Positions 11,080 through 27,350 of a DNA stretch of 64,000 nt are shown one piece after another. The DNA lies in assembly GCF_003586445.1 (NCBI RefSeq), contig NZ_CP030028.1:4292501-4356500 (forward strand), read 5' to 3'. The stretch's first letter is position 1, and every line of letters begins with the position of its first letter. The DNA comes from Bacillus sp. Y1. GTDB lineage: Bacteria > Bacillota > Bacilli > Bacillales > Cytobacillaceae. The notes under the pieces were generated by a model, which was not told the DNA's origin, did no database searches, and saw nothing but the letters and a program-made list of their open reading frames with translations. The translations under genes and the position numbers were made by a program.

Positions 11080-11659
11080 CGTCATCACCCTCCTTTTTCA
11101 TACAAATTGGAACTCCTGCTTCAACGAGATACGCTTCCTTTGCCATTGCAACGACCTGTTGATTTAGCCTGCCAAGGATCTTTGCATACACAAGAACAAG
11201 GTCGCTTGAGCGTATCGGTTCATTCAAGATTTCATTACTAACGACGATGAGGGTATGACAATTTTTCTGTATCGAAAGGATCCCCTCAATGATCGAATTC
11301 TTGATCTCTTCATGAAAAGAAGGGTCCATCAGCCTCTCCTCGGTTTGAAACAAACGATTGTTTAATAGATTGGTTAGGCAATCAAAAAGCACAATATCAT
11401 TCGGCTGAAAAACAGTTGAGAGGTTATGTAAAAAATAGGGCTCCTCCCACGTTTCCCAGTGTTGCTCCCCTTCATTTCTTTGCTGTTGATGCCTTTTAAT
11501 TCGGTCCTTCATTTCTGCATCAAAAGCAACTCCAGAAGCAATGTAATGGAGATTTCCGTGAGTTTTCATTGTGAGCTCCATGGCCGTTTTCTCAGCAAAA
11601 CTGCTTTTTCCACTTCTAACACCACCACTGATAAATATCAGCTGTCCACCTTCCGCCAT
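11051..11659 (-). CDS. cobU: Adenosylcobinamide kinase / adenosylcobinamide-phosphate guanylyltransferase
   Basis: Phosphorylates adenosylcobinamide and transfers GMP to it, activating the corrinoid for attachment of the lower ligand. The 202-residue protein has the P-loop FISGGVRSGKSSFAE (residues 9-23), RIKRHQQQR with the histidine expected to be guanylylated, and DCLTNLLNN and VVSNEILNEPI, matching the CobU signature 'D(C)LT...(V)SNE'. The start ATG 11659 overlaps the end of cobD by 22 nt and has GAGGTG about 8 nt upstream. Confidence 0.92.
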   Translation of the reverse strand: MAEGGQLIFISGGVRSGKSSFAEKTAMELTMKTHGNLHYIASGVAFDAEMKDRIKRHQQQRNEGEQHWETWEEPYFLHNLSTVFQPNDIVLFDCLTNLLNNRLFQTEERLMDPSFHEEIKNSIIEGILSIQKNCHTLIVVSNEILNEPIRSSDLVLVYAKILGRLNQQVVAMAKEAYLVEAGVPICMKKEGDDVAFRDGRGV

Positions 11660-12717
11660 TCACTCATCACCTCTAATAACCTTTCGTGCTCAGTTGGCCC
11701 CTTAACCGCCAGTCGCAGCCACTTTCCGTCAAGTCCAGGAAAATTCATCGTATGTCGTGGAATCATCCCCTTCTCCATCAAAAAAAGAAAAAATGGAAAT
11801 TGGTCGGAGACTTTCGTATCTTTTAGCAAATAAAAGTTTACAGTTGATGGGGAATAAGAGAACTCCTGTTCACGATAAAAAGTCTGTAGCCTCTCCCGCT
11901 CCTGTTTTATCAATTGAATGGTTTGTTCTACATAGTCACTTTCTGACAAACACCATTCACCCACCTTCATAGCTATCGCATTCACACTCCAATGCGGTTT
12001 GCTTACCCTAATCTTTGCTAGCAGGGCTTCATTGGCAATTAAGTATCCCAGGCGGATTCCTGGAATGCTGAACATTTTTGTCATGGAACGAAGAATGATC
12101 ATATTTCCGCCATGTTGGAGACAGGAAACGGTTGATTCATACCCTTCTATAAAGTCGTAAAAGGCTTCATCGACGATGAGAAAGGTTTCGTATTTGGCAC
12201 ATTCACGAGCAAGAAGCTCAATTGTTTGTTTCGGAAAAAACATTCCCGTTGGATTGTTTGGATTGCACAGAAATACAGCGTCTACTTCACGTAAGTTCAC
12301 TAGTAATTCATTTAAACGTAATTCCCAGCTTTCTACATCCATCAAGTGATAGCGCACCTCACATTGATTCACTCGGCATGCTTCTTCGTATTCGGAAAAT
12401 GCTGGTTGTACGATGAGCACTTTTTTACCAGTGAGCAGTCGTCCGACCAAAGAAATAAGCTCCGCCCCTCCGTTACCAACTAAGATTTGCTCTTTTCTTA
12501 CTCCTTCTTTCTTTTCAAGCAAACCTGTTAGTCTTTCTGCCGTTGGATCCGGGTAATCAGATACAAGCGGTAACAGCTCATTCCACCTGTCTTTTACTAT
12601 GGCTGGTGGACCAAGCGGGTTAATATTGGCACTAAAGTCAATCACTGATTCAGGCATTTCAAGATGAAGTGCTTCATATAAAAATTGAGGATTAGATCCG
12701 TGCGTAGGCCACTTCAA
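11638..12717 (-). CDS. cobD: PLP-dependent threonine-phosphate decarboxylase (or histidinol-phosphate aminotransferase-like)
   Basis: A fold-type I aminotransferase-like enzyme that in cobalamin synthesis makes (R)-1-amino-2-propanol phosphate from threonine phosphate. The 359-residue protein has HGSNPQFL near the N-terminus, the CobD hallmark DFSANINPLGPP, CNPNNPTGMF and the PLP lysine in RSMTKMFSIPGIRLGYL. The start is TTG 12717, 7 nt after GGAGGG, and overlaps cbiB. Histidinol-phosphate aminotransferase is a close relative, but DFSANINPLGPP and the operon favour CobD. Confidence 0.88.
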   Translation of the reverse strand: MKWPTHGSNPQFLYEALHLEMPESVIDFSANINPLGPPAIVKDRWNELLPLVSDYPDPTAERLTGLLEKKEGVRKEQILVGNGGAELISLVGRLLTGKKVLIVQPAFSEYEEACRVNQCEVRYHLMDVESWELRLNELLVNLREVDAVFLCNPNNPTGMFFPKQTIELLARECAKYETFLIVDEAFYDFIEGYESTVSCLQHGGNMIILRSMTKMFSIPGIRLGYLIANEALLAKIRVSKPHWSVNAIAMKVGEWCLSESDYVEQTIQLIKQERERLQTFYREQEFSYSPSTVNFYLLKDTKVSDQFPFFLFLMEKGMIPRHTMNFPGLDGKWLRLAVKGPTEHERLLEVMSEWRKVDS

Positions 12718-13657
12718 CGATCATCCCTCCAATCCATAATAAAAGTAAAAATGTGAGTACCGTTCGAGTTAAAATGCCATTGGTTTGTAAAATATGCTCT
12801 CCCGTAACAGGAAAATAGGGTTCTCCCATTTTTGCTCGATCGGAGCGAATGCCCTTGTAATAATTGATTCCTCCCAGTTGAATCCCAAGTAAGGCAGCCA
12901 CAGCTGCTTCTCCCCATCCACTGTTTGGGCTCGGATGTTTTTTTGCATCACGAAGAACGATTTTTGCTGACTCTTTTACCGAGGATCGGACAGGCTTATT
13001 GCTAAAGAGCATACAGATGGAGGTTAGGCGACTTGGTATCAAATTTAACCAATCATCAAGCTTCGCCGATGCCCAGCCAAACTCCATGTATTGATCATTT
13101 TTATAACCCACCATCGAATCGCAAGTATTGACCGCACGATACAGCATCGCGAGAGGTGCACCACCGAGTAACGCCCAAAATAAGGGAGCAGTTACTCCAT
13201 CACTTGTATTTTCTGCGACCGTTTCAATTGTCGCGCGAACCACACCCTGTTCATCAAGTTGATCCGTGTCACGACCAACAATATACGATAGCTTGTGACG
13301 AGCTTCCACGATATCTCCCTTTTTTAACGGACCATACACCGTCATCGCTGCTTCCTTTAAGCTTTTTTGAGCAATCGTCGTCCAAATGATCACAGCTTCA
13401 ACCATTATTCCGACCATGAAATGAACATGATAAGCTAACATCGTAATTAGGATCGTAATCCCCACGACGAGCAGGAGAAGCGTAACCACCATGGCGACTC
13501 CCTTCCATTTTTTCCGCGTCCCTTTATTCCACTTTTTCTCGAGCTTATAAATCATTGTTCCGATCCACTTCACCGGATGTGGCCAATCGATAGGATCCCC
13601 GAGAAGTAAATCGATAAAATAAGCAATTGTCATTGCCAATAAATGTTGAAAAAACAT
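12692..13657 (-). CDS. cbiB: Adenosylcobinamide-phosphate synthase CbiB
   Basis: Membrane enzyme that joins the aminopropanol (phosphate) arm to adenosylcobyric acid. The 321-residue protein has several membrane segments and the family motifs FIDLLLGDPIDWPHPVKWIG (residues 11-30), NTSDGVTAPLFW, RAVNTCDSMVGYKN and HPSPNSGWGEAAVAALLG. Start chosen at ATG 13657 because GGGGAGGG lies 7 nt upstream. The frame runs further up, but only through riboswitch sequence. It is the first gene of the B12-riboswitch operon. Confidence 0.93.
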   Translation of the reverse strand: MFFQHLLAMTIAYFIDLLLGDPIDWPHPVKWIGTMIYKLEKKWNKGTRKKWKGVAMVVTLLLLVVGITILITMLAYHVHFMVGIMVEAVIIWTTIAQKSLKEAAMTVYGPLKKGDIVEARHKLSYIVGRDTDQLDEQGVVRATIETVAENTSDGVTAPLFWALLGGAPLAMLYRAVNTCDSMVGYKNDQYMEFGWASAKLDDWLNLIPSRLTSICMLFSNKPVRSSVKESAKIVLRDAKKHPSPNSGWGEAAVAALLGIQLGGINYYKGIRSDRAKMGEPYFPVTGEHILQTNGILTRTVLTFLLLLWIGGMIVEVAYARI

Positions 13658-21639: not shown

Positions 21640-24057
21640 TTAAAGCTTCACTCGCTGTAACCGTAATGCATTTAACACAACTGATACAGAGCTGAAGGCC
21701 ATGGCTGCTCCCGCTAGCCACGGAGCTAAGAAACCAAGTGCTGCAATCGGAATGCCTAGTGTGTTGTAGGCGAATGCCCAAAATAGATTTTGCTTGATAT
21801 TTGTGATCGTCTTTTTGCTCATAAAGATGGCGTCTGCAATGCTGTTTAAGTCACCTCGGATGAGCGTAATGTCCGCTGCTTCCATCGCTACATCGGTACC
21901 TGTTCCAATCGCCATACCGATATCTGCGATTGCCAAAGCTGGAGCATCGTTGATTCCATCGCCAACCATCGCAACTTTCTTTCCAGCTGCCTGCAGCTTT
22001 TTCACTTCCTCTGCTTTTCCTTCTGGAAGCACTTCGGCAATGACGCGATCTACTCCTGCTTCTTTTGCGATTGTTTGAGCGGTTTGCTCATTGTCACCAG
22101 TAATCATGATGACTTCAAGTCCCATATCCTTCAAGCGTGCGATGGCTGAACGTGACGTTACTTTAATTGTATCAGCAACTGCAACGATACCTGCAAAAGC
22201 GCCATCAACCGCTACTAGCATCGCTGTTTTCCCTTCTTTTTCAAAAGAAACCATGTTTTCAAGGACCATTTCTTCTACATTAATTTCATACTTCTTCATC
22301 AAACGACGAGTGCCTACTAACACCTCTTTTTCAGCGACCATAGCCTTAATTCCGAAACCAGGTATCGCTTCAAACTGAGACACATCGACGAGCGCACTTC
22401 CTTTTTCCTTAATTCCTTCTACAATCGCTTGCGCAAGAGGGTGCTCAGATTGCTTCTCAGCAGAACCGACCAATGTTAAGAATTCTTCTTCATTCATGGA
22501 AGTTACTACATCCGTTAATACCGGCTTTCCATTGGTAATCGTACCTGTTTTATCAAGAATGACTGTTTGAATGCGGTGTGTCATTTCTAAGTGCTCTCCG
22601 CCTTTAAAAAGAATACCGAATTCTGCTGCACGACCAGATCCTGCCATGATTGAAGTAGGTGTAGCGAGACCAAGTGCACAAGGACAAGCAATTACTAAAA
22701 CGGCAATCAATTTTTCTAATGCTTCTGGGAAGTCACCAGGTGCCACCCAGAAAAACCATACAAGGAATGTTACAACGGCAATTCCGACTACGATCGGGAC
22801 AAAAATGCCTGAAATAGAATCAGCCAAGCGTTGAATCGGTGCCTTTGATCCTTGTGCTTCCTCTACCACCTTAATGATTTGCGCAAGAACTGTGTCCTTC
22901 CCGACTTTCGTTGCTTGCACTTTTAAAAATCCATTTTTATTAAGAGTTGCTCCAATGACCACATCACCAACTGTTTTATCAACTGGAACACTTTCACCTG
23001 TCAGCATGCTCTCATCAAGTGCGGACTGTCCTTCTAAAATGACTCCATCCACAGGAATCTTTTCCCCAGGCTTAACCAGCAACACATCGCCAGCAATTAC
23101 CTGCTCTAACGGAATTTCTACTTCTTCTCCATCACGAACAACAAGAGCTGTTTTTGCTTGAAGCCCCATGAGCTTTTTGATCGCTTCAGAAGAGCGACCT
23201 TTTGCTTTTACTTCAAACAATTTTCCTAATATGATTAAGGTGATTAAAACTGCACTCGTTTCAAAATACAATCCGACTCCGTGTGCGTTGTGGCCAATGG
23301 TTCCAATGGCAATATACACACTGTAGAAATAAGCAGCAGATGTGCCGAGCGCAACAAGTACATCCATGTTCGCACTTTTGTTTCGAAGTGCTTTATAGGC
23401 ACCCACATAAAACTGCTTACCGATGAAAAATTGGACTGGTGTCGCTAACGCCATTTGTACCCATGGATTCATGAACGCTTCGGGAACATATAAAAAGGAG
23501 GTAAACGTAAAGTGCCCTGCCATTGCCCACAAAAGTGGAAGAGATAAGATTAAAGAGAAAATAAACTTTCCTTGTTGCTTCTCTATTTCCTTTAAACGGT
23601 GATCGACTGTTTCCTTTTCATTTTCATCGGATTTTACTGTTGCCCCGTATCCGAGCTTTTCTATTTTTTGAATCATATCCGTAACAGATACAGACGCTGG
23701 ATTGTATTCAACAGAAGCTTTTTCAAGAGCGAGGTTCACGTTGGCACCAACGACACCGTCAAGTTTGTTTAAGCCTTTCTCAATGCGAGTGGCACAAGCT
23801 GCACACGTCATGCCTGTCACGTTTAGCTCTGCTTTTTCAGTAATGACGTCATATCCAAGGGCACGAATTTTCTCTTGAATGTTAACTGGCCCTATTACAG
23901 CGGCATCAAACTTTACTGTCGCTTTTTCTAAAGCTAAATTTACATTTGCATCCGTGACTCCATCCATTTTTTTTAGACCTTTTTCAATGCGAGTAGAACA
24001 CGCAGCACAAGTCATACCGGTAATCTGAAATTGACTTTCTAGTACTTTTTCACTCAT
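21640..24057 (-). CDS. copA: Copper-exporting P1B-type ATPase
   Basis: An 805-residue Cu(I) efflux ATPase. It has two N-terminal metal-binding HMA domains, each with GMTCAAC (first pair C17/C20, second near residue 85), then eight membrane segments with the CPC motif in [13 protein letters not shown], the phosphorylation site [18 protein letters not shown] and [22 protein letters not shown] lies 8 nt before ATG 24057. It is third in a csoR-copZ-copA cluster but has its own CsoR-like operator, and copZ is followed by a hairpin, so copA may be separately transcribed. Confidence 0.96.
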
Positions 24058-24070
24058 ATGAAAAACTCCT

Positions 24071-24089
24071 TATACCTATATAGGGTATA
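24071..24089 (-). promoter_or_regulatory. CsoR operator in front of copA
   Basis: TATACCTATATAGGGTATA is an interrupted palindrome matching the known CsoR boxes (TATACCCN...GGGTATA type). It lies between copZ and copA, 14 nt upstream of the copA start. Confidence 0.75.
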
Positions 24090-24096
24090 TTTTTTT

Positions 24097-24128
24097 GAAA
24101 AGAGGACGTGCTATTTCTAGCACGTTGT
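24097..24128 (-). terminator. Hairpin/terminator after copZ
   Basis: ACGTGCTA at 24106-24113 pairs with TAGCACGT at 24118-24125. On the minus strand CCTCTTTTC follows. It may separate copZ and copA transcript levels. Confidence 0.6.
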
Positions 24129-24133
24129 CTTTT

Positions 24134-24340
24134 TTATTTTACATCATAACCTTGATCATCAATTGTTTCTTTGATTGTATCTAATGATACTTTGTCAGCA
24201 TCAAACTCTACAGCAACTGATTTGTTTTCTAGGTCAACCTTTACAGCTGCAACCCCTGCTAATTTCCCAACGCTACCTTCTACTGCTTTTACGCAGTGTC
24301 CGCATGACATACCTTCTACTTGTAATGTAACTTTTTCCAT
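24134..24340 (-). CDS. copZ: Copper chaperone CopZ
   Basis: A 68-residue single HMA domain that carries Cu(I) to CopA. The metal-binding motif GMSCGHC gives C13 and C16. Start at ATG 24340, with AAGGAG 9 nt upstream; the TTG 24349 extension lies too close to the ribosome-binding site. Located between csoR and copA. Confidence 0.95.
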   Translation of the reverse strand: MEKVTLQVEGMSCGHCVKAVEGSVGKLAGVAAVKVDLENKSVAVEFDADKVSLDTIKETIDDQGYDVK

Positions 24341-24353
24341 GATTAACAACTCC

Positions 24354-24686
24354 TTATTTTTTCATTAATTTTTGAATCGTTACGAGTACCTCATCTAATA
24401 CTTCTACATCGCCCTCTTGCAGACGATCAACCACACAGCCCTTTAAATGGCCTTCTAGCAATATTTTTGCGACACTGTTTAAAGCTGATTGTGTGGCTGA
24501 AATTTGTGTAATGACATCGTCACAGTATGTGTCTTTTTCAATTAGTCCCTTGATTCCACGAATTTGACCTTCAATCCGGTTTAATCGTGTGACAAGATTG
24601 CTTTTCACTTTATCTGAATGATGACTTTTCCGATCACTGCTATGGCAGCTTTCCTCTTCATGTAGCAAAGAATCATCTGGATTCAT
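24354..24686 (-). CDS. csoR: Copper-sensing repressor CsoR
   Basis: A 110-residue all-helical repressor that releases DNA on binding Cu(I). The ligand triad is complete: C55 (TYCDD), H80 and C84 (EGHLKGC). The core RLNRIEGQIRGIKGLIE is typical. The N-terminal 25 residues are extra, rich in His, Ser and Asp (HEEESCHSSDRKSHH), and may offer additional metal ligands. First gene of the cluster, with an operator-like site upstream. Confidence 0.95.
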   Translation of the reverse strand: MNPDDSLLHEEESCHSSDRKSHHSDKVKSNLVTRLNRIEGQIRGIKGLIEKDTYCDDVITQISATQSALNSVAKILLEGHLKGCVVDRLQEGDVEVLDEVLVTIQKLMKK

Positions 24687-24814: not shown

Positions 24815-26953
24815 CTATGATTCATCTTTCACCCGAAGCAATCGTAGGCTGTTCAGCGTCACAATTAACGTGGCTCCCATATCCGCAAAGATGGCAATCC
24901 ATAATGTGAGCCAACCTGGAACGACTAATAATAGCGCCAACAGCTTAATACCAAGTGAGAAAGTGATATTTTGTTTAATAATATTTAATGCTTTTCTACT
25001 TAACTTTACAGTGAACGGAAGCTTTCTCAAATCATCAGCCATAAGCGCAATATCCGCTGTTTCAAGGGCTGTATCCGTTCCTGCTCCTCCCATCGCAATA
25101 CCAACAGAAGAAGCTGCTAAGGCAGGTGCATCATTTACACCATCACCGACCATAGCTACCCGTTGATAAGTGGCGCGTAATTCTTTAATGTATGAAAGCT
25201 TTTCTTGCGGGAGAAGATTCGCTTTTACCTCATTTACTCCTGCCTTCTGTCCAATCGCCTTGGCCGTACCTTCATTGTCTCCTGTAAGCATAATGGTCTT
25301 TTGCAGTCCGAGTGAGTGAAGCTGTTGTACCACGCCTTTTGTTTCTTCTCGAATCTCATCGGCCACTGCCACAATTGCAAGGAAATCTTCAGATGAACAA
25401 ACAGCCATCACCGTTTTTCCTTGTTCCTCAAGCCTAGTAATTTGTTCACGATAGACAGCTGTTATGCCACCCTCCAACTGTTCATGAATAAAACTTGGAC
25501 TTCCCACATAATACTTCGTCCCCGCAATTTTTCCTTCGATTCCTTTTCCTGTTACTGAGGTAAAATCCTTCAGTTCTAAATGGTCATAATTCAATTCCCA
25601 TTGATCTGCCTTTTTTAAAATAGCAGAGGCAAGTGGATGCTGAGAGACCTTTTCTAGTGCTGATATAATGGAAAATGTCTCGTTGGCAGGAATGTTCGGA
25701 GCGGTTTCATAGTCGGTGACTACCGGAATGCCCTTTGTTAACGTGCCAGTTTTATCAAAAGCAATCGCCTTAATGGCTCCCATTTCCTCTAGATGAATTC
25801 CACCTTTGATTAAAACGCCCCTTTTCGCTGCATTTCCAATGGCTGTTACGATAGCAACAGGTGTGGAAATAACGAGAGCACACGGACAACCAACTACTAA
25901 CACGGCTAAGCCTTGGTATACCCACTCATTCCACTCTAAGCCGAACAATAGCGGTGGGACAACCGCTACTCCGAGGGCAAATAGCATAATGATTGGTGTG
26001 TAATACTTTGCAAAGCGGTCAACAAATGCCTGTGATGGGGCTCTTTCCGCTTGCGCTTCTTCAACCAAATGGATGATTTTCGCAATCGTCGTATCTTCTA
26101 CATGCTTTGTCACCTTTACCTCAAGGAAGCCTTCTTCATTCAGGGTCCCAGCGTAAACTTCATCGTTCACTCCCTTTGCAACAGGTACGGACTCCCCAGT
26201 AATGGCTGCCTGATTGATGGATGACATGCCTTTTACGATGATCCCATCCATAGCTAATTTTTGGCCAGGCTTTACAAGTAGAACATCATTAATTTGAATG
26301 TCTTCTACGTCAATGACCATCTCTTGAAGTCCACGCCGTATCATTGCTTCTTTTGGAGCGATATCCATAAGTGAGCGAATCGATTGGCGAGCTTTATCCA
26401 TCGAATACGATTCAAGCACTTCACTAATCGCAAACAGAATAACAACGGTTGCCCCTTCACCCCATTCACCGATAATGGCAGCTCCAATAACCGCAATGGT
26501 CATGAGTGTTTTCATATCAAACTCGAGGCGGAAGAGATTTTTGAATCCTGTCCTGAAGAGGCGGTAGCCTCCTAAGATCATGGAGGACGCATAAGCTCCC
26601 ATCGATGCAAAGGATTCTTCCCCACGGATTTCACCAAATATCCATCCTATTAGCAATAGCACAAAGGAAGCAAGAACCATCGCATGCCTTTTTAGAAATG
26701 GCTCCTTCGCCTCTTGAATACGAGCCTTTTCAGGTTGAACCTTTATCCCGTCGAATGCACCGGCTTTTTCAATTTCTTCTATCGTTGCCTCACCAAACAC
26801 GGTTAGTTTGGCAGCACCAAAGTTTATATTTGCATCAAAAACACCATCCAGGTGCTTTACGTTCGTTTCGAACTTTTTGGCACAGCTGGCTCAAGAAAGC
26901 CCTTGAACGCGATATACTTGCTTACTATTCATCATTGCAGTTGAATTATCCAC
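24815..26953 (-). CDS. cadA: Cadmium/zinc P1B-type ATPase with in-frame TGA in the HMA CxxC motif
   Basis: Cd(II)/Zn(II)/Pb(II) efflux ATPase. The intact part has CPC in [27 protein letters not shown] and [16 protein letters not shown]. Start taken as GTG 26953: GGAGGTG is 7 nt upstream and it overlaps the cadC stop, as in homologous operons. From there the frame reads YRVQGLS, then TGA (codon 21, 26891-26893), then [20 protein letters not shown] thus falls exactly where the first cysteine of the GxxCxxC metal site belongs (TGC to TGA). The open part after it (from GTG 26800, codon 52) has no ribosome-binding site. Options: selenocysteine, UGA read-through, a disabling mutation, or a sequencing error. 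Everything downstream is intact (712 codons in all). Confidence 0.8.
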
Positions 26954-27314
26954 GTAATGCCACCTCCTTTTGATGGGTAAAGGCGATGTTAACGAGTTGT
27001 TTAACATGCTCATCGTCTAAGGCATAATAGACCAGTTTTCCTTCTTTTCGGTAGGTGGCAAGACCAAGGTTTCGAAGGAGTCGAAGATGGTGCGAAGCGG
27101 TAGCAACCGTGCATCCAACTATATTAGCCACATCGCATACGCAAAGCTCCTCTTCCACACTTAGCGAATAAGCAATTTTCACACGCGTGTCATCCGCTAA
27201 TGCTTTAAAAAGCTTCGAGACCTCCATTGTGTTTTGCATATTAAGCTCATTTTTTACTTTCGTAACCTTCTCCTCATCAAAACAGGTGACCTCACATACA
27301 TCCTCTTTCGCCAT
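26946..27314 (-). CDS. cadC: Cadmium-responsive ArsR/SmtB-family repressor CadC
   Basis: A 122-residue winged-helix repressor, the same length as S. aureus CadC. All known metal ligands align by number: C7, C11, C58 and C60 for the Cd/Pb site and D101, H103, H114 and E117 for the Zn site. The DNA-recognition helix is in ATASHHLRLLRNLG. Start at ATG 27314 with GGGGAAG upstream; ATG 27332 falls inside the operator palindrome. Its stop overlaps the cadA GTG start by 8 nt. Confidence 0.95.
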   Translation of the reverse strand: MAKEDVCEVTCFDEEKVTKVKNELNMQNTMEVSKLFKALADDTRVKIAYSLSVEEELCVCDVANIVGCTVATASHHLRLLRNLGLATYRKEGKLVYYALDDEHVKQLVNIAFTHQKEVALRG

Positions 27315-27330
27315 TACACTTCCCCATTTC

Positions 27331-27350
27331 ATTCAAACATTCTTTTGAAT
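27331..27350 (-). promoter_or_regulatory. CadC-type operator
   Basis: ATTCAAACATTCTTTTGAAT is an inverted repeat (ATTCAAA/TTTGAAT arms) of the ArsR/SmtB type, 16-36 nt upstream of the cadC start. Confidence 0.65.

Follow-up and report, generated by a model that had tools for sequence, protein, structure and literature searches.

A Predicted Selenocysteine-Containing Heavy-Metal ATPase, CadA (UxxC), in Bacillus sp. Y1 and Its Relatives among the Bacillaceae

Introduction

The cadA gene of Bacillus sp. Y1 carries an in-frame TGA exactly where the codon for the first metal-binding cysteine of a heavy-metal P1B ATPase is expected. The question is whether the gene is broken, whether the UGA is read through as an ordinary amino acid, or whether it is decoded as selenocysteine (Sec). 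The locus lies within a 64,000-nt stretch of contig NZ_CP030028.1 (positions 4,292,501 to 4,356,500), called the window below, and coordinates refer to this window. A preliminary description had left the choice between a UxxC heavy-metal ATPase and a recent nonsense mutation. Taken as a whole, the data are best explained by a Sec-containing U-x-x-C Zn/Cd/Pb P1B efflux ATPase, the UGA of which is decoded by SelB (probability about 0.93).

Results

The cadA gene (24815..26953, reverse strand, TGA codon 21 taken as selenocysteine) was delimited from its frame and profile matches. Its GTG start (26953-26951) overlaps the end (26946) of cadC (26946..27332, reverse strand), which encodes an ArsR/SmtB metalloregulator (NF033788, 94.6 bits, cut-off 55). 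A ribosome-binding site GGAGGTG (26961..26967, reverse strand), located by sequence inspection, lies 7 nt ahead of the GTG. Codon 21 is TGA (26891..26893, reverse strand), a predicted selenocysteine codon judging by the frame and the codons of relatives, and the frame is open to the stop at 24815. The start, the cadC overlap and the position of the TGA agree with those given earlier.

The frame 3' of the TGA matches the cadmium-family model TIGR01512 (530.5 bits, cut-off 313.5) and TIGR01525 (604 bits, cut-off 346.25); the copper model TIGR01511 is narrowly over its cut-off (403.6 vs 397). Zn/Cd P1B ATPases are marked by a membrane CPC motif and by Asp in the last helix. CadA has both, namely GCPCAL and FADMGAT, the latter aligned to LADTGAT of ZntA. 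The architecture of ZntA (PDB 4umv) is shared, since a Cys orthologue (L022) aligns with it over residues 8-707 (451 bits); this alignment places an HMA-type N-terminal metal-binding domain at approximately 26741..26917 (reverse strand). The motif within it (TGA-GCC-AGC-TGT, 26882..26893, reverse strand) has its TGA aligned with Cys59 in the CAAC motif of ZntA. Thus, the CxxC of the CadA/ZntA N-terminal domain is UxxC by codon here, and Cys stands at this site in relatives only. Directly downstream of cadA are a csoR-like gene, copZ and copA (21640-24686); the HMA motifs of CopZ and CopA contain ordinary Cys.

The 661-aa frame 3' of the TGA was used as the query, and the best 80 of 580 confirmed relatives in named genomes were compared, so that the sample is biased to close relatives. 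The nearest are Robertmurraya korlensis genomes (90-93% identity). The first-Cys codon of the motif is TGA in 47 of these 80 and TGC or TGT in 33, which is the pattern sought in selenoprotein genes, an in-frame UGA where homologues have Cys; TAA, TAG or TGG at this codon was found in none of the 80. The TGA loci come from Robertmurraya, Neobacillus, Cytobacillus, Peribacillus, Mesobacillus, Litchfieldia, Rossellomorea, Fictibacillus and Bacillus methanolicus, whose strain PB1 supplies L064.

A motif scan of 130 loci (L022-L151, some genomes being represented more than once) gave 95 TGA and 49 Cys genes with an in-frame ATPase and 3 more Cys-type matches in which CPC is lacking. Neither TAA nor TAG was seen at the site; L116, the sole locus missed by the scan, also has TGA. 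Among five same-genus genomes, that of Bacillus sp. Y1 included, four have TGA (L102, L103, L104, L106) and one has TGC (L105). A TGA-specific motif pattern was run on the 193 genomes (25 genera) of the same GTDB family; it matched 153 of them, in 20 genera, whereas the reversed pattern, used as a control, matched one. The pattern missed TGA-cadA in G120, G135 and G019 (L116), and made a stray match in G147, the cadA of which has TGC (L174). Alignment with cadA of close relatives, which the preliminary description had proposed, has thus revealed a TGA common to dozens of species and to four of the five same-genus genomes. The in-frame TGA is real and far above chance, and cadA is not a broken gene.

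The machinery for reading such a codon is present. The genome of Bacillus sp. Y1 (one contig, 5.03 Mb) contains selA (560 bits), selB (383 bits), tRNA-Sec (selC; 58.9 bits, gathering score 47, also called by ARAGORN) and selD (G000:C1:2744310-2745236, L018; 402 bits), each of which scores above its curated cut-off. All four genes named earlier as the ones to search for were therefore found, and the host has SelA, SelB, SelC and SelD, as is required of a host of selenoproteins. The selD gene has an in-frame TGA of its own before GCKIGPEDL. This TGA is followed by a stable predicted stem-loop (-16.3 kcal/mol), which is unlike the cadA element.

TGA-cadA and the machinery tend to occur together. 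A selB over the cut-off occurs in 43 of 44 TGA-cadA genomes vs 9 of 31 Cys genomes (p = 8e-11), counted on 78 of the best 80 loci in 75 genomes, three pairs of loci sharing one genome each. L031 lies in a genome counted as TGA that has a Cys copy too. Among the nine selB-containing Cys genomes, Cytobacillus oceanisediminis 2691 (L069) has a TGA copy too (same plasmid, L157), so its entry in the count leans against the selenocysteine reading. In the 193 family genomes, which the 75 probably overlap, selA and the TGA pattern occur together in 149, selA without the pattern in 23, the pattern without selA in 4 and neither in 17 (Fisher p = 3e-10, relatedness ignored). Five of the 23 were inspected: the three genomes missed by the pattern (G120, G135, G019) have TGA-cadA, G095 has no cadA match at 1e-180, and in G062 the motif was not found in the best match (53% identity). 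Of the four with the pattern alone, G147 is the stray match, and G204, G206 and G212 have true TGA-cadA (L173, L172 and L175, respectively). TGA-cadA thus occurs beside no over-cut-off selA in these three genomes, and beside no over-cut-off selB in the genome of L066, which is probably the same genome as G206 (3,783 of 3,783 bases identical). The G212 assembly is 81% complete, and G204 carries the mobile cad block described below. Both G204 and G206 carry Cys copies besides TGA-cadA.

The TGA opens a 66-nt element with two tandem hairpins (26828..26893, reverse strand; covariance model R1). Hairpin 1 (26861..26873, reverse strand) is GTTCG-AAA-CGAAC in the window and is separated from the TGA by 17 nt; its family form has 4 bp and a 5-nt loop starting GA. 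Hairpin 2 (26839..26857, reverse strand), recognized in the aligned TGA genes, has 7 bp and the loop UGGAU. In family coordinates (TGA = 0-2), GUUC-loop-GAAC spans 20-32, and the 7-bp UGGAU stem spans 36-54. The small hairpin reported earlier is therefore correct in its position and its 17-nt gap; it is the first of two, hairpin 2 having been missed.

Both hairpins lie over coding sequence, so codon choice was tested, the expectation being taken from the codons that these genes use for the same amino acids at other places. In 81 unique TGA genes, G or C fills the four closing third positions of hairpin 1 in 96-98% vs 27-32% expected, and third-position G/C changes little on thinning to 78 and 55 representatives. 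The same positions in 41 unique Cys genes are G or C in 20-39% vs 19-34% expected. They are raised, weakly, at one of the four, position 20 (39% of 41 vs 19% expected; 62% vs 24% after thinning). Synonymous-identity excess in the 78 TGA representatives is 0.32 over hairpin 1 and 0.45 over hairpin 2, the more strongly conserved of the two, vs 0.06 over codons +40 to +99 and 0.23 over codons +1 to +5; the corresponding values in 27 Cys representatives are 0.06, 0.03, 0.10 and 0.07. A synonymous C at 26885 (third position of codon +2) is kept in 96-97% of TGA genes; it falls outside both hairpins and is explained by neither.

Base pairing is kept as well. In 56 aligned TGA sequences, 98.5% of 616 tandem-hairpin cells are paired, and two-sided (compensatory) changes occur at 4 pairs, in 17 cells vs 2.3 in shuffles, slid controls giving at most 5. 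Codon choice and covariation, each with its controls, thus point to an RNA element conserved immediately 3' of the UGA, as is characteristic of selenoprotein genes. An alternative long stem (CCAG/CUGG and GUGC/GCAC with hairpin 1) is the better fold in the window (-14.0 vs -12.1 kcal/mol for the tandem element), and 6 of its 8 outer pairs hold in at least 50 of the 56 sequences. It is nevertheless disfavoured: 79.9% of the cells of its outer helix are paired with zero two-sided changes, and it does not account for the conserved third positions in the 3' arm of hairpin 2.

The only match of model R1 in the genome of Bacillus sp. Y1 is cadA (90.8 bits, the window being among the training sequences of the model). 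Since selD is not matched there, R1 carries no information on other selenoproteins. At E <= 0.001, R1 matched 123 of 397 genomes of the order; Cys genes may account for the weaker matches (about 30-50 bits), and all ten loci fetched with R1 (L160-L169, that of Bacillus sp. Y1 included) have TGA. A search of 26700-26980 against Rfam gave no SECIS match, only three matches below the gathering score that are unrelated by name.

The published constraints of the bSECIS model are a loop of 3-9 nt, a stem of 4-16 bp, G in the first two loop positions, a spacing of 16-37 and an energy of -7.5 kcal/mol or lower (PMC13188914). Hairpin 1 fits in stem, G and spacing (21 nt) when taken as 4 bp with a 5-nt loop starting GA; with the 5 bp possible in the window, G is absent from its loop. 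Hairpin 2 fits in its stem and G[G/U] loop and lies 40 nt from the UGA, over the usual range. Neither hairpin alone is a textbook bSECIS. The element resembles bSECIS in part, with a stem-loop directly 3' of the UGA, G in the first two loop positions (in hairpin 1 when taken as 4 bp) and an energy below -7.5 kcal/mol, and differs in being two tandem hairpins with the G[G/U] loop 40 nt away. Hairpin 2 could contact SelB, and hairpin 1 could bring it close to the UGA.

A tree of the part 3' of the TGA, made by a quick method from 94 sequences (67 TGA and 27 Cys, thinned from 81 and 41), requires at least 5 changes between TGA and Cys vs 23.7 in shuffles. Two Cys cases look like reversions from TGA. 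One is L022, which falls inside Robertmurraya in a selB-positive genome; it has TGC, two broken pairs in hairpin 2 and an intact hairpin 1. The other is L174 of G147, a genome with no selA over the cut-off, which has TGC and retains most hairpin letters; G147 stands outside the tree, so that the direction of change there is presumed. The G147 match also holds a TAA, and the gene may be shortened.

In several genomes, TGA-cadA is part of a block of about 5.3 kb that encodes a Cad-family cadmium transporter, CadC, CadA, a methyltransferase, a MerR regulator and a zf_CopZ protein. Six genomes of five genera (L152-L154, L117, L118, L173) share the block at 98-99.98% identity over 5.0-5.3 kb, and it is a probable mobile cadmium island carrying the predicted selenoprotein. 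In G116, the block (L152:5269-10376) adjoins genes with integrase-core, Mu-transposase and AAA/TniB domains (11304-13452). The presence of L173 in G204, which lacks selA, indicates that mobile copies can reach hosts presumably unable to read the TGA. Relatives were also found in 385 plasmid records at 1e-150; among the four of these inspected, two Cytobacillus copies have TGA and two Paenibacillus copies have Cys. The annotated coding regions of the Cytobacillus copies (L156:2848-4983, WP_252222689.1; L157:2842-4977, WP_082919471.1) span the TGA, which suggests that the annotation pipeline already recodes it. In G023, cadA may be split into two pieces far apart (C1:2623592-2624638 and 3860608-3861636, query residues 1-349 and 318-660).

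Discussion

Under the standard code, a frame of 661 aa begins at GTG 26800, and pumps of this kind can usually transport without their N-terminal metal-binding domain. Both points would accord with a recent nonsense mutation, which either disabled cadA or left a shortened pump without this domain made from an internal start. This earlier alternative is now highly improbable in view of the TGA in dozens of species, with no TAA or TAG seen, the conserved SECIS-like signal and the Sec genes. Purifying selection acts on both sides of the TGA in 81 genes (pN 0.20 and pS 0.74 for codons -10 to -1; pN 0.11 and pS 0.67 for codons +19 to +30). Internal starts are not conserved: GTG 26800 occurs in 6 and ATG 26680 in 3 of the 81 genes, and the best start position within the first 89 codons reaches 27%. 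Together with the selection around the TGA, this strongly disfavours a leader-only or shortened-pump reading. A sequencing error at 26891-26893 would need a single base to turn a Cys codon into TGA; it is the least probable explanation of all, as the same TGA recurs in other species and in three further same-genus genomes.

UGA read-through occurs in Bacillus, and the codon could in principle be read by near-cognate tRNA-Trp without selenocysteine. In the best 80 of 580 relatives, however, it exchanges with Cys codons only and never with TGG, which argues against tryptophan, and neither the co-occurrence with selA and selB nor the conserved hairpins would be expected; such read-through is very unlikely. 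A further reading, compatible with a Sec-containing CadA, puts control before chemistry: the early UGA would serve as a selenium gate, Sec at the metal site being incidental. With the UGA as early as codon 21, termination wastes little, and the dispensability of the surrounding domain would fit too. However, in the genes examined, which were screened at this one site of the leader, the UGA coincides exactly with the metal-binding Cys, and a genome of this genus that contains selB has the Cys form (L022). The gate is thus an unlikely, though not negligible, account of the codon.

The Sec-containing efflux ATPase proposed in the Introduction would function as follows. Cd, Zn or Pb would relieve repression by CadC and give a cadCA message, on which ribosomes starting at the GTG would reach the UGA at codon 21. 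The tandem hairpin immediately 3' of it would recruit SelB with Sec-tRNA-Sec, which would insert selenocysteine and allow translation through the ATPase; when selenium is absent, most ribosomes would terminate having made 20 residues. A selenolate and a thiolate would then hold the metal at the N-terminal site, and the selenolate could bind Cd, Pb or Hg in a softer and tighter manner than a thiolate. Decoding of UGA 21 as Sec by SelB is the well-supported part of this mechanism. Conservation of the TGA and the hairpins, the presence of the Sec machinery and its co-occurrence with TGA-cadA come directly from the computations; from these we infer that Sec is incorporated and serves as a ligand, that CadC is the regulator and that the pump has the metal specificity given. 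The UxxC reading of the preliminary description has accordingly gained support from the Sec genes, the TGA of relatives and the SECIS-like signal, the protein itself still being a predicted one. The combination that was to speak against it, a genome without Sec genes together with TGC in all close relatives, was not encountered.

The type of protein has precedents. A "cation-transporting ATPase E1-E2, UxxC" is listed as a predicted selenoprotein (PMC13188914, PMC9312934), the GOS survey having yielded a single gene (PMC2398784) and a count of 2016 giving 32 genes from 25 organisms (PMC5029168); Bacillaceae may be among these 25. CadA shares with this type (example ABB15669.1) a heavy-metal P-type ATPase, TIGR01525 and UxxC, and by the latter two it is a putative member. 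Unlike Cys CadA/ZntA, it has a UGA codon, with recoding hairpins, in place of the first metal-binding Cys. UxxU_metal_bind (NF041115) and the MerT/CopZ fusion selenoprotein (NF045683) have in common with it, by name, Sec in an HMA-like motif; by name they are not P-type ATPases, and the cadA frame is matched by neither. Both matched the nearby Cys protein CopZ, and NF041115 also matched CopA.

By term counts, the main text of PMC13188914 contains none of 'bacill', 'Firmicutes' and 'Bacillota'. A search of the open-licence literature yielded no paper on a selenoprotein CadA in Bacillaceae; nor was a description found there of how widely the gene occurs in this family, of its tandem-hairpin signal, of exchange between Sec and Cys or of the almost identical copies in different genera. 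The UxxC ATPase type is thus already known as a predicted selenoprotein, and what is found here is a well-supported and unusually broad clade of it.

A wider picture may be put forward tentatively, as something possible rather than probable: a Bacillaceae-wide selenium-gated pump, in which the tandem hairpin puts Sec in a metal sensor site and resistance needs both metal and selenium. Its gene would move on plasmids and cad islands between genera, work only in hosts with Sec machinery and revert to Cys on loss of it.

In practical terms, cadmium-resistance genes with an in-frame TGA can pass for truncated or broken genes. A redox role is presumed for most prokaryotic selenoprotein families (PMC9312934), and the details of Sec as a metal ligand in transporters are called open in a 2026 review (PMC13188914). 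In contrast to the usual redox role, Sec in CadA would be a transporter metal ligand. As the clade is large and culturable, with natural Sec/Cys pairs, the question of why a metal site uses selenium becomes testable.
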